Source of the DNA: Arthrobacter antibioticus
GTDB taxonomy: Bacteria > Actinomycetota > Actinomycetes > Actinomycetales > Micrococcaceae
Length of the DNA stretch: 64,000 nt
Reading direction: 5' to 3'
NCBI RefSeq assembly: GCF_030063205.1
Contig: NZ_JASISQ010000001.1
Span: 299,152 to 363,151 of the forward strand
Shown here: positions 10,014 through 52,710 of the stretch, piece after piece
How the letters are laid out: each line of letters opens with the position of its first letter
Position numbering within the stretch: position 1 is the first letter of the stretch
Program-made: the position numbers and the translations under genes
Notes under the pieces: generated by a model
Databases searched by the model: none
The model's input: only the letters and a program-made list of their open reading frames with translations
What the model was told of the DNA's origin: nothing

Positions 10014-10056
10014 AAAAGGGACTGTTTGCACCACGTGGGTGCAAACAGTCCCTTTT
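10014..10056. terminator. Bidirectional terminator between ptsH and ctaF
   Basis: Perfect 19-bp inverted repeat: AAAAGGGACTGTTTGCACC (10014-10032) and its complement (10038-10056), loop ACGTG. The arms end in A-run and T-run, so it can terminate transcription on both strands between the convergent genes. Confidence 0.92.
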
Positions 10057-48370: not shown

Positions 48371-50875
48371 CTAGGCAGGAACGATATTGACCAGCTTAGG
48401 CGCACGAACGATCACTGTGCGGATTCCACGGCCGTCAAGAACCTTTTGTACAACCGGCGATGCCAACGCCAACTCGCGCAGATCATCTTCAGAGATATCA
48501 GGTGACACTTCCAAACGCTCGCGGACCTTGCCTTGGATTTGCACAACGGCGGTAATGCTCGCCTGCACCAGAAGTGACTCATCGACAGCTGGGAAGCCAG
48601 CGTTCGCTACCGAGGCTGGATGGCCAAGAGCACTCCACATGTCTTCTGCGGTGTACGGCGCGAAGAGACTCAGAATAATAGCGACAGCTTCTGCAGCCTC
48701 TCGCACCGCGGGATCCAACGCACCAGCACCGGAATCAATGACCTTGCGTGTAGCATTTACCAATTCCATGATCTTGGCGACCACAACATTGAATTTGTGT
48801 CCTTCAAGGAGTGCCTTGGACTCGTGGACGGTCCTGTGGGTCAGAGACCGCAAGGAGGCGTCGCCAGCCAATACATCGGCGCCGGGCTCGCTGTTAACAT
48901 CGTTACCCAAACGCCAAGCCCGTGCCAGGAACTTCGCCGAGCCCGACGGCGAAACATCCGCCCAATCGACGTCGTCCTCGGGCGGACCGGCAAAGACCAT
49001 GGTGAGGCGGACGGCGTCGACCCCGTATTTATCCAGCTGCTCGCCCAGATCAACCCCGTTGCCTAGGGACTTACTCATGGCTTTGCCCCCGTTGAGCACC
49101 TGCCCCTGGTTCAACAGGGCACTGAAAGGCTCGGTGGCCTCCAACATGCCCATGTCGTGGATGACCTTGGTGAAGAAGCGGGCGTACAGCAGATGCAAAA
49201 TGGCGTGCTCAACACCGCCGACGTACTGACCAACCGGCATCCAGTCATTGACCTTGGCCGGATCGAAGGGGCCCTGCGTGAACTGCGGCGAGACAAAACG
49301 CAAGAAGTACCAGGAGGAATCAACAAAAGTATCCATTGTGTCGGTGTCACGCTTGGCTGCCCCGCCGCACGTGGGGCAAGCAACGTTGACCCAATCCGTG
49401 GCAGCCGCCAGCGGGGAGGTGCCCTTGGGTGAGAGGTCCTCGCCGCGCAGGTTCTCCGGCAGGCGGACAGGTAGTTGCTCGTCAGGAACCGGGACCTCAC
49501 CGCAAGCGGCACAATGAATGATGGGAATCGGGGTGCCCCAGAAACGCTGGCGTGAGAGCAACCAGTCACGAAGACGGAAGTTCACAAACTTCTCACCCGT
49601 GCCCAGTTTCTCCAAAATTTCAATTGCCGCGGGGATGGCCTCAGACTTCGAGAGCCCGCTGAGCTCCCCGGAATTCATCAAGGTACCCTCACCCGTGCTG
49701 GCGATGCCACTTTGAGCGGGATCTTCCATGCCTGTGTCCAAGACTGCCCGCACTGGCAACTTGAAGGCCTTAGCGAAGTCCAGGTCACGCTGGTCGTGTG
49801 CGGGAACGGCCATAATGGCGCCCGTGCCGTAATCAGCCAGGACGTAATCAGCCGCCCACACCGGCAGCTTTTCACCCGTGAGCGGGTTAATAGCGTAGCG
49901 GCCAGTGAACACGCCGGACTTCGGGCGTTCCGTTGACTGGCGCTCAATGTCACTAAGTGCCTTGACTTGTTCACGGTATTCGCTCAATGCCTCAGCGTTC
50001 TCGGCCGTGACAAGATCCAGAGCCAACGGAGCATCAGCTGCAACCACAAAGAACGTCGCCCCGTAGAGGGTGTCCGGACGGGTGGTAAAAACTTTCAGTT
50101 CCTGCTCAGGTTTCTGCTCCCCCGCAGCTTCAATCAAAAATGTGACGTGAGCGCCTTCGGAGCGACCAATCCAGTTTTTCTGCATAGCCAGGACACGGTC
50201 AGGCCAGTGCCCCTTCAGCGCGTCCATGTCATCCAAGAGTCGATCGGCGTAATCAGTGATCTTGAAATACCACTGGTTCAGGGACTTCTTAGTCACAACT
50301 GTGCCGCAGCGCTCACAGGCACCACCAACAACTTGTTCGTTAGCTAGGACCGTCTGGTCCTTGGGGCACCAGTTAACGGGTGAGTTCTTCCTATACGCCA
50401 GTCCACGCTCATGAAAGCGTTTAAACAACCACTGGGTCCACCGGTAGTACTCCGGGTCAGAGGTCTGCAGCCGCCGTGACCAATCAACCGAGATGGCGTA
50501 GCGCTTGAACGACTCGGCCTGCGTGTCAATGTTCGCATACGTCCACTCGCTGGGGTGAGCATTGCGTTTAATCGCAGCATTCTCGGCAGGCAACCCAAAA
50601 GAGTCCCAACCGATCGGGTGCAGGACGTCGTAGCCCAGCTGACGCCAGTAGCGTGAAACAACGTCGCCCATGGCAAACGCTTCAGCATGGCCCATGTGCA
50701 GGTCCCCGGAAGGATACGGGAACATATCCAGGACGTAGCGGCGTTCCTTGGATCCGTCATCAAGTGGAGCAAAAACGTTCAGTTCATCCCAGACGGCCGG
50801 CCATTTGGCTTCCATCGAGGTGAAACTGTAGACGCCCTCTTCGCTGTTCTCTTCAGTCTGGGACTGCACGCTCAC
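48371..50875 (-). CDS. leuS: Leucyl-tRNA synthetase
   Basis: Class I synthetase charging tRNA-Leu. HIGH motif is HMGH in [21 protein letters not shown] motif is MSKSLGNG (near residue 598); the CP1 editing domain and cysteine pairs (CxxC in [23 protein letters not shown]) are present. 834 residues from GTG 50875, chosen because AAAGG lies 8 bases upstream; ATG 50896 lacks a ribosome-binding site. The leader carries a leucine-rich mini-ORF and a terminator-like hairpin. Confidence 0.95.
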
Positions 50876-50930
50876 GTACCCTGCCTTTTCATTCATCTAT
50901 GGCTTATTGCACTTTCCGGCCCTTTACACG

Positions 50931-50957
50931 CAAAAGCCCCTCGACGTAGCAAGGGGC
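50931..50957 (-). terminator. Attenuator-like hairpin in the leuS leader
   Basis: On the minus strand GCCCCT (50952-50957) pairs with AGGGGC (50936-50941), followed by TTTTG (50931-50935). It lies about 56 bases before the leuS GTG. A second perfect stem, CCGCAAC-AAGT-GTTGCGG (50961-50978), sits between it and the leader ORF. Confidence 0.6.
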
Positions 50958-50978
50958 GCACCGCAACACTTGTTGCGG

Positions 50979-51005
50979 TTAGCTAAGGAGGAGAAGTTTG
51001 TGCAC
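50979..51005 (-). CDS. Candidate leuS leader peptide (M/V)HKLLLLS
   Basis: Eight-codon ORF on the minus strand: GTG CAC AAA CTT CTC CTC CTT AGC TAA, with four consecutive leucine codons. The GTG at 51005 falls six bases after a -10-like TAAAGT (51012-51017), as for a leaderless message. The stop codon abuts the first stem of the attenuator region. Its position in front of leuS makes a sensor of leucyl-tRNA supply the natural reading. Confidence 0.65.
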   Translation of the reverse strand: MHKLLLLS

Positions 51006-51061
51006 ACCCTTACTTTACCGCACCTTCAAAGTTGACCAGCGCGCCTGCACACCGTTAACGA

Positions 51062-51098
51062 CGAATATGGCGCAGCAAGCACTGCTGCGCCATATTCG
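51062..51098. terminator. Hairpin between glpK and leuS leader
   Basis: Perfect 16-bp stem CGAATATGGCGCAGCA (51062-51077) / complement (51083-51098), loop AGCAC. There is no clear T-run, but its position after glpK fits an operon-end terminator. Confidence 0.7.
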
Positions 51099-51145
51099 AT
51101 CTCAACCATGCGCAGATGCGAGGTTGGGGTGCTACTTGGTGCTTG

Positions 51146-52660
51146 TTACTTCACGTCCTCGTCAACCCAGTCCATGGACTTGGTGACAGCCTTCTTCCAG
51201 AGACGCATCTGACGGTCACGCTCAGATGATTCCATGTTCGGTTCCCAGCGCTTATCTTCAGACCAGTTCGAGGACAGCTCGCCGAGGTCTTTCCAGAAAC
51301 CAACAGCCAGGCCGGCTGCATAGGCAGCACCCAGAGCCGTGGTCTCGGTGACCTTGGGACGGATCACCGGAACGCCAAGAATATCAGCCTGGAACTGCAT
51401 GAGCGCGTCGTTGGCGACCATTCCGCCGTCGACCTTCAACTCAGTCAGGTCAACACCAGAGTCAGCATTGACGGCATCAAGTACTTCGCGCGTCTGGAAT
51501 GCTGTTGCTTCCAGCGCAGCCCGGGCAATATGGTTTTTGTTCACAAAGCGGGTGAGGCCAACAATGGCGCCGCGAGCATCTGAACGCCAGTACGGTGCAA
51601 ACAGACCGGAGAACGCGGGGACAATGTAAACGCCACCGTTGTCCTCTACTGCCGCAGCCAACTCCTCAACTTCAGGTGCAGACTTGATCATCCCGATGTT
51701 GTCACGCAACCACTGGATCAGGGACCCGGTGACGGCGATTGAACCTTCAAGTGCGTAGTGCGGGGCAGCATCGCCAAGCTTGTAGCCAAGCGTGGTGAGC
51801 AGGCCGTTCTTCGAGTGGACAATTTCCTCGCCCGTGTTGAAGATCAGGAAGCAACCCGTGCCATAAGTGTTCTTGGCTTCACCAGTCTTGAACGCCGCCT
51901 GACCGAAGGTGGCAGCCTGCTGATCGCCAAGGATGCCGGCTACGGGAACTTCGCGCAGCAGCTGGCTGCCGTGGACGTGGCCGTAAACCTCAGAGGATGA
52001 CTTGATGGCAGGCATCATTGACTTCGGAACACCGAAGATCTCGAGAATCTCTTCGTCCCACTGCAGCGTTTCCAGATCCATGAACAGTGTGCGTGATGCA
52101 TTGGTGACATCGGTGATGTGCACACCCCCATCAATGCCACCGGTCAGGTTCCAAGTAACCCAGCTATCGGTGTTGCCGAAGAGGAGATCCCCAGCTTCTG
52201 CCTTGGCGCGGGCACCCTCAACGTTGTCAAGGATCCACTTGATCTTGGTACCTGAGAAGTAGGTAGCCAGCGGCAAGCCAACCTTGGACTTGAAACGCTC
52301 AACGCCACCGTCGGCAGCCAGTTCATCAACGATCGGCTGTGTGCGGGTGTCCTGCCACACGATGGCGTTGTATACGGGAACGCCAGTGTTCTTGTCCCAA
52401 ACAACCGCGGTTTCACGCTGGTTGGTGATGCCAACTCCGACAATGTCGTGACGGGTCAAGTTGGCTTGTGCCAACGCAGTACCAATCACTTCGCGAATAT
52501 TGTTCCAGATCTCTGTCGCGTTGTGCTCAACCCAGCCTGCCTTGGGGAAAATCTGCTCGTGTTCAAGCTGCCCCGTGGAAACAATGTTCCCGTCGTGGTC
52601 AAACACAATGGCACGGCTGCTGGTAGTTCCTTGATCAATGGCAATTACATACTGAGACAT
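51146..52660 (-). CDS. glpK: Glycerol kinase
   Basis: Phosphorylates glycerol to sn-glycerol 3-phosphate. FGGY-family fold with the phosphate-binding DQGTTSSR (9-16), [11 protein letters not shown], and [22 protein letters not shown] plus [15 protein letters not shown]. 504 residues from ATG 52660, which AAAGGA places 7 bases downstream; ATG 52663 is also in frame. Last gene of glpD-glpF-glpK. Confidence 0.96.
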
Positions 52661-52710
52661 CATTGTTTCCTTTGCTTGTGATTCGTTTTAAGAACACATT
52701 GGTGAGTGGA

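Follow-up and report, generated by a model that had tools for sequence, protein, structure and literature searches.

The gene leuS, encoding leucine--tRNA ligase (TIGR00396, 954.7 bits against a cut-off of 548.4), is located on the minus strand at positions 48371..50896 of the window, the whole 64 kb stretch of DNA that was analysed. Two starts are available to it, ATG at 50896 and GTG at 50875, situated 35 or 56 bases past the TTTT of the terminator described below, and GTG 50875 may be the one used, judging from the conserved motif GTGAGCGT(G/T)CAG. The gene upstream on the same strand is glpK (glycerol kinase, 51146..52663, minus strand; NCBIfam match of 793.6 bits, above the cut-off), and a strong hairpin behind it was read from the sequence at 51092-51068. 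Since a separate hairpin already follows glpK, leuS probably, and indeed very likely, has a promoter of its own. A simple sigma-70 scan of 50500-51500 returned no promoter pair, the -10-like box alone being visible.

This box, the hexamer TAAAGT (51012..51017, minus strand), which presumably belongs to the leuS promoter, keeps its spacing in relatives and lies 6 nt before the GTG of a short ORF of eight codons plus stop, GTG CAC AAA CTT CTC CTC CTT AGC TAA (MHKLLLLS*; 50979..51005, minus strand), which is presumably leaderless. Four Leu codons follow one another in it (50985..50996, minus strand), the last being CTT at 50987-50985. Downstream on this strand come stem 1, ACCGCAAC/GTTGCGGT (50960..50979), whose outermost pair takes the last base of the stop codon and which is supported by folding and covariation, and then an intrinsic terminator, GCCCCTTG..CGAGGGGC with TTTT (50932..50957, hairpin 50957-50936), recognised by sequence, fold and comparison. 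Three pause-like bases of the minus strand (50927..50937), G 50937 (the last of the terminator arm), T 50928 and G 50927, occupy the G-10 Y-1 G+1 places around the expected point of RNA release. The initial annotation of this region had described the hexamer six bases before the ORF, the four Leu codons, a CCGCAAC/GTTGCGG stem and a terminator-like hairpin GCCCCTTG...CGAGGGGC with TTTTG before leuS, and all of these were found where it had placed them; solely the extent of stem 1 had to be revised, as CCGCAAC/GTTGCGG is present and the helix is one pair longer, the last A of the stop codon pairing with the U after GTTGCGG.

Within the 64 kb window, no other ORF of up to 14 codons, on either strand, has at least four Leu codons running. 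Six starts of ORFs of this size with at least three Leu codons in a row were counted in the window, and a TANNNT 6-7 nt upstream was found at the leuS leader alone. The 80-nt leader RNA folds at -29.9 kcal/mol (z = -2.87), a value equalled or bettered by 2 of 200 shuffles. Terminator-like sites were more frequent than expected in the same 1 kb (50500-51500, both strands; 5 observed against 0.7 expected), the leuS terminator being one of them. That the element is not due to chance is settled by its conservation in the comparisons that follow. A T-box reading was rejected, as no Rfam model matched at the region: Rfam 15 gave no family there even at E<=5, and on 12 related loci it returned one tRNA and nothing else. 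Elsewhere in the window (10018-10052), the long inverted repeat GGGACTGTTTGCACC..GGTGCAAACAGTCCC, which has a run of T on each strand, resembles a bidirectional terminator.

For the survey of relatives, the regions preceding leuS were taken from 58 genomes (30 loci) and from a further 80 loci. A loose search recorded a short ORF with at least three Leu codons in 55 of 108 anchored loci, some of them chance ORFs, and a structural search yielded 52 candidate leaders among the same 108, one of which is dubious (L040) and another a repeat (L031, of L016). The candidates were distributed over Arthrobacter, Pseudarthrobacter, Nocardioides, Marmoricola, Microlunatus, Thermoactinospora and Nonomuraea; of 48 loci inspected over 300 bases before leuS, those of Kocuria, Yaniella, Acaricomes, the Microbacteriaceae included and Planktophila showed no such leader. 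Conservation of the Leu run in close relatives, on which the initial annotation had made its proposal depend, was borne out: the leader is present in 22/22 Arthrobacter loci, the genome of the window counted, although the run is interrupted in five of these 22, as in MHNFLPLS. The dubious candidate belongs to Glutamicibacter sp. JC586 and consists of hairpins before leuS with the peptide MNSQHNLA*, which has a single CTA and no Leu run; it is perhaps a decayed or differently tuned leader.

Forty-nine sequences were aligned with MAFFT (alignment A1), leaving out L031 (the same leader as L016), L040 (on account of its peptide without Leu run) and L003, and a covariance model, R1, which includes the Leu stretch and the region from hexamer to start, was built from them. 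With E<=0.01 and strict filters, R1 matched 63 of 120 sampled genomes of the family (18/32 genera) and 191 of 394 sampled genomes of the class (76/138 genera), leaving 57 and 203 genomes, respectively, without a match under these filters. In the genome of the window it found one strong place (84.1 bits), the next match reaching 16.4 bits (E 3.4). Not every match precedes leuS, and the downstream genes were checked at 106 loci. The 66 loci checked from the class search, among which seven had been picked as second matches and two (L117 and L163) are one place, gave 58 leuS, 4 ilvB, 3 citramalate synthase and 1 contig end; the 40 from the family search gave 37 leuS and 3 ilvB. Excluding the 10 loci before ilvB or citramalate synthase, 143 distinct leuS-type leaders were pooled, one of which (L156) was counted as such though its contig ends short of the gene. 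One genome (G261) has two LeuS-matching genes (tblastn), each behind such a leader (L142 and L149).

A short ORF stands at the equivalent place in all 143 leaders, starting with ATG in 109 and GTG in 34, and in 141 of them it begins 6-7 nt past the hexamer position, a stretch that the finding model covers. Leu codons number one in 2 leaders, two in 22, three in 104, four in 13 and five in 2, so that 141/143 have at least two, in a search that favours Leu-bearing leaders by containing the Leu stretch. A run of at least three was present in 115 leaders and missing in 28, and the interrupted runs (MSALELS.., MHNFLPLS, MSAVLRLS) suggest that two Leu codons may suffice. Among the leaders, Leu codons are swapped for synonymous ones, so that it is the amino acid and not the RNA alone that is kept. 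As last Leu codon, 124 leaders have CTT (the others CTC 8, CTA 8, TTG 2, CTG 1), against a background of 316 CTT in 1892 Leu codons (16.7%) over 47 ORFs of the window. Of the 51 tRNA matches in this genome, nine long-arm tRNA genes were read, and four of these are tRNA-Leu (CAA, CAG, TAG, GAG); CUU would be decoded by the GAG tRNA through wobble.

The two stems were then evaluated in 74 Micrococcaceae sequences, where 93.8% of the cells pair, compared with 43.8-53.2% when the partner is slid, and none of 500 shuffles reached the covariation score of both stems; this alignment was fitted to the model, hence its pair counts lean towards it. Compensatory changes, which the initial annotation had named as support if present in both stems, were found in stem 1, with two-sided changes in 8/9 pairs. 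Alignment A1, which is unfitted, gave 92.3% pairing, seven pairs with two-sided changes and again 0/500 shuffles reaching the score, and RNAalifold on A1 returned the same two stems. The outermost pair of stem 1 is G-C in 56, G-U in 13 and A-U in 5 of the 74 sequences, the window having A-U, and the terminator is nearly invariant, every lettered cell being a standard pair in the 74.

The geometry is equally regular. In 65 of the 74 Micrococcaceae the start of the last Leu codon precedes the first paired base of stem 1 by 8 nt, and in 68 of 69 leaders from outside the family the distance is 6-8 nt. The stop codon ranges from -6 to +25 nt relative to the start of stem 1, lying at -2 in 59/74 Micrococcaceae and 7-10 nt inside stem 1 in 41/69 others. 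Since the distance is fixed while the stop moves, it is the distance from codon to stem, not the stop, that is kept. The gap between stem 1 and the terminator is at most 3 nt in 142/143 leaders, a figure that includes helices drawn one base too far into the terminator (gap -1, 17/143), though stem 1 spans 19 to 62 nt. G-10 Y-1 G+1 is given as the consensus of the elemental pause in the text of PMC12288461, and all three bases are present in 121 of 142 leaders. By these comparisons, the Leu codons, stem 1 and the spacing are all under selection.

Additionally, the R1 matches ahead of other genes were analyzed. Seven precede ilvB (L143, L146, L148, L180, L190, L191 and L192, by tblastn; L148 also by NCBIfam), and they carry Ile, Val and Leu codons and a stem 1 that differs in sequence, for instance GCGCGU/ACGCGC or GCACGUG/CACGUGC. 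Three precede a gene for citramalate synthase, an enzyme of an isoleucine route (L144, above the model cut-off; L145 and L147, by tblastn to the L144 gene). These leaders (L144:488-583, L145:441-550, L147:3023-3117) have the same architecture, a stem 1 of another sequence and Ile codons in their peptides MQHRIRIP, MQHRVIIIS and MLHHVIIIR; no publication on Ile-codon leaders before citramalate synthase was found in a search of the open-licence literature. Because the codons match the amino acid of the downstream gene in three cases (leuS, ilvB and citramalate synthase), amino-acid sensing is favoured.

A short Leu-rich ORF (MHKLLLLS*) thus lies ahead of leuS and, by sequence and fold, an intrinsic terminator lies between the two. 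The layout of an attenuator responding to charged tRNA-Leu, as initially proposed, is strongly supported by the comparison of the Leu codons, the leaderless-type start, the two stems, their contiguity and the downstream gene, and we consider that the element is a ribosome-mediated transcription attenuator of leuS sensing leucyl-tRNA with a probability of about 0.72. A 70S ribosome would begin translating the leaderless RNA from its 5' end and then read the Leu codons. With ample leucyl-tRNA it would pass the Leu run, finish where stem 1 begins and depart; stem 1 and then the adjoining terminator would fold, and most transcription would end ahead of leuS. With scarce leucyl-tRNA the ribosome would be held up at the Leu codons, and its wait at the final one, CUU, would be the most telling. 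With CUU occupying the A site, stem 1 has its first paired base 8 nt downstream, and the footprint of a ribosome reaches about 12-13 nt downstream; a stalled footprint of this size would mask exactly the first five pairs of stem 1. With stem 1 blocked, RNA polymerase would read through into leuS more often. Leaderless translation, the stalling, the direction of control and lower termination upon loss of stem 1 are steps that we infer from this layout. The contiguity of the hairpins and the pause-like bases suggest that the efficiency of termination may depend on stem 1 itself, and our guess is that the two hairpins, lying nearly end to end, act as one unit. Hence, confidence is high in attenuation as the purpose of the element and low in its last step.

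This last step is where the strongest alternative applies, a classical attenuator with a true antiterminator that went unrecognised, for example because it differs from species to species. The text of PMC1262725 ascribes antiterminator and terminator hairpins to the leaders that precede leuS in S. avermitilis and S. coelicolor, although the hairpin named antiterminator there may be stem 1 itself, and some of our sequences permit weak alternative hairpins between the freed 3' arm and the terminator loop. If the freed 3' arm of stem 1 acted as antiterminator, the terminator would be expected to become less probable once the 5' arm is masked, and folding of 106 sequences showed no drop: its mean probability was 0.965 in the complete leader and 0.977 after masking of that arm, values below 0.5 occurring in four and two sequences, respectively. 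Likewise, the nascent RNA pairs with the 5' arm of the terminator in 26% of these sequences masked and 28% unmasked. Two candidate pairings were tried on the alignment and rejected, neither showing covariation. That of the stem 1 3' arm with the terminator 5' arm pairs in 70.8% of cells without supporting variation, one inner position pairing in 1/74; the other, between the Leu run and the 3' arm of the terminator, pairs in 87.3%, and 499/500 shuffles reach its covariation score. In the latter, CUU would pair worse than CUC with the GAG of the terminator 3' arm. The initial annotation had seen no clear antiterminator pairing either, and no conserved one emerged from the masking folds and the two pairings tested. 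An overlooked antiterminator is, on this evidence, unlikely. Because no exclusive antiterminator pairing of the strict trp type was found, within the scope of the masking test and the two candidate pairings, the element is filed as a translation-dependent leader in the wider sense.

Less likely again is translational control, in which the leader ORF and the hairpins would act on the initiation of leuS and not on termination. The GAGGGG arm resembles a Shine-Dalgarno sequence, and about 7 nt beyond it comes an RTG, the first base being mostly A or G. This RTG falls within offsets 5-9 in 121 of 143 leaders (50926-50937 in the window); measured from where the hairpin ends, offset 6 holds one in 76% of 115 leader terminators and in 10% of 42 other terminator-like sites, many of which come from related loci. 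Offset 12 is another frequent place for RTG in these control terminators (24% of 42), owing to related sites. Leaderless polycysteine ORFs of mycobacteria, reportedly the subject of work by Canestrari in 2020, are a possible precedent. However, the ORF from this RTG is unconserved, 17/121 stopping at once and 39/121 staying open beyond the LeuS motif or as far as the sequence was read; the tail fits the pause consensus in 121 of 142 leaders; there is a U tract; and the same arm and tail occur after a tRNA gene in the genome of the window. A second ORF starting from GAGGGG and RTG was rejected for these reasons, as its frame and length vary and the tail is also found behind the tRNA gene. The site in question (L266, G000:C18, near 30749) is a terminator-like hairpin with arm and tail GCCCCTC..GAGGGGCTTTTTCGTG; the arm-plus-tail pattern gave 6 matches in this genome against 5 in the reversed control and is not a general feature there. 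A plain terminator that stops readthrough from glpK, the upstream gene on the same strand, beside a chance or unimportant ORF and without any regulation is scarcely credible, since glpK already has its own hairpin behind it and the Leu codons, spacing and stem 1 are maintained class-wide ahead of leuS, comparative data which make this reading very unlikely.

Returning to ribosome-mediated attenuation, we put forward tentatively, as a possibility less likely than the sensing function itself, that these widespread actinomycete leaders dispense with an antiterminator: the leading edge of a ribosome on a fixed CUU, 8 nt away, would block a hairpin that has to abut the terminator if termination at a consensus pause site is to be efficient, in versions with Leu, Ile/Val/Leu or Ile codons ahead of leuS, ilvB and citramalate synthase, respectively. 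The missing antiterminator is the most interesting feature of the leuS leader; if its absence is true, a common class of synthetase leaders would fall outside the textbook 2:3 / 3:4 logic. The fixed spacing from Leu to stem, CUU as last codon, the near-contiguous hairpins, the pause-like bases and the lack of a visible antiterminator are testable features, and the related leaders offer a natural set of variants ready for reporters.

Compared with known systems, the leuS leader shares with the classical attenuation of trp, his and pheST the regulatory codons, the first hairpin and the terminator, and differs from it in its presumed leaderless start and in that no 2:3 antiterminator was found. 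With T-box leaders, in which a synthetase gene is controlled by the charging of its tRNA, the concept is common, and an ORF appears to stand where the T-box has its tRNA-binding RNA. The LEU element of leuA also has a Leu-run leader peptide in the same phylum; it is described as a pseudoknot in which the Leu run pairs with the Shine-Dalgarno box of leuA (PMC1262725), whereas the corresponding pairing with the purine-rich arm is not supported here, as it lacks covariation. Attenuators of ilvB have been reported in Actinobacteria (PMC1262725) and for ilvB1 of Mycobacterium tuberculosis, where reporters and disruption of the terminator were tested experimentally (PMC13236596). They resemble the present element in having a short ORF with branched-chain codons and a terminator, and R1 also matches ilvB leaders, the differences being the gene, the codons and the sequence of stem 1. 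In S. coelicolor, the replacement of candidate codons ahead of ilvBNC had no effect, according to the text of PMC1262725, a result that counts against the attenuation reading.

The closest systems precede leuS itself. The initial annotation had named T-boxes and pheST as the precedents for synthetase genes; in fact leuS attenuators had already been predicted in Streptomyces avermitilis and S. coelicolor (Seliverstov et al. 2005, PMC1262725), and a LeuL2 leader had been annotated (PMC8079986). The former share with the window the gene, a short ORF with Leu codons, one or more hairpins and a terminator with a U tract, and differ in the antiterminator hairpin reported for them, no conserved one having been found here. 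The leuS case is given there for the two Streptomyces species, and the main text of that paper contains neither "Arthrobacter" nor "Micrococc"; among the open-licence papers listed in literature searches, none on such a leuS leader in Micrococcaceae was found. LeuL2 of Streptomyces lividans TK24, known from RNA-seq, is a leaderless leader, MRAVRLLLSEPR*, ahead of leuS (PMC8079986), and it is followed by a hairpin and a U stretch, as is the Leu-run ORF in the window. Four of our loci (L152, L159, L174 and L176) encode exactly the LeuL2 peptide, and the same covariance model matches them and the window. Their stop codon lies within the 5' arm of stem 1, whereas that of the window is at the first base of the stem, and the LeuL2 peptide differs from that of the window outside LLLS. 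The element is thus very probably a real regulatory leader which would extend the leuS leader type known from Streptomyces to the Micrococcaceae and other Actinomycetes.
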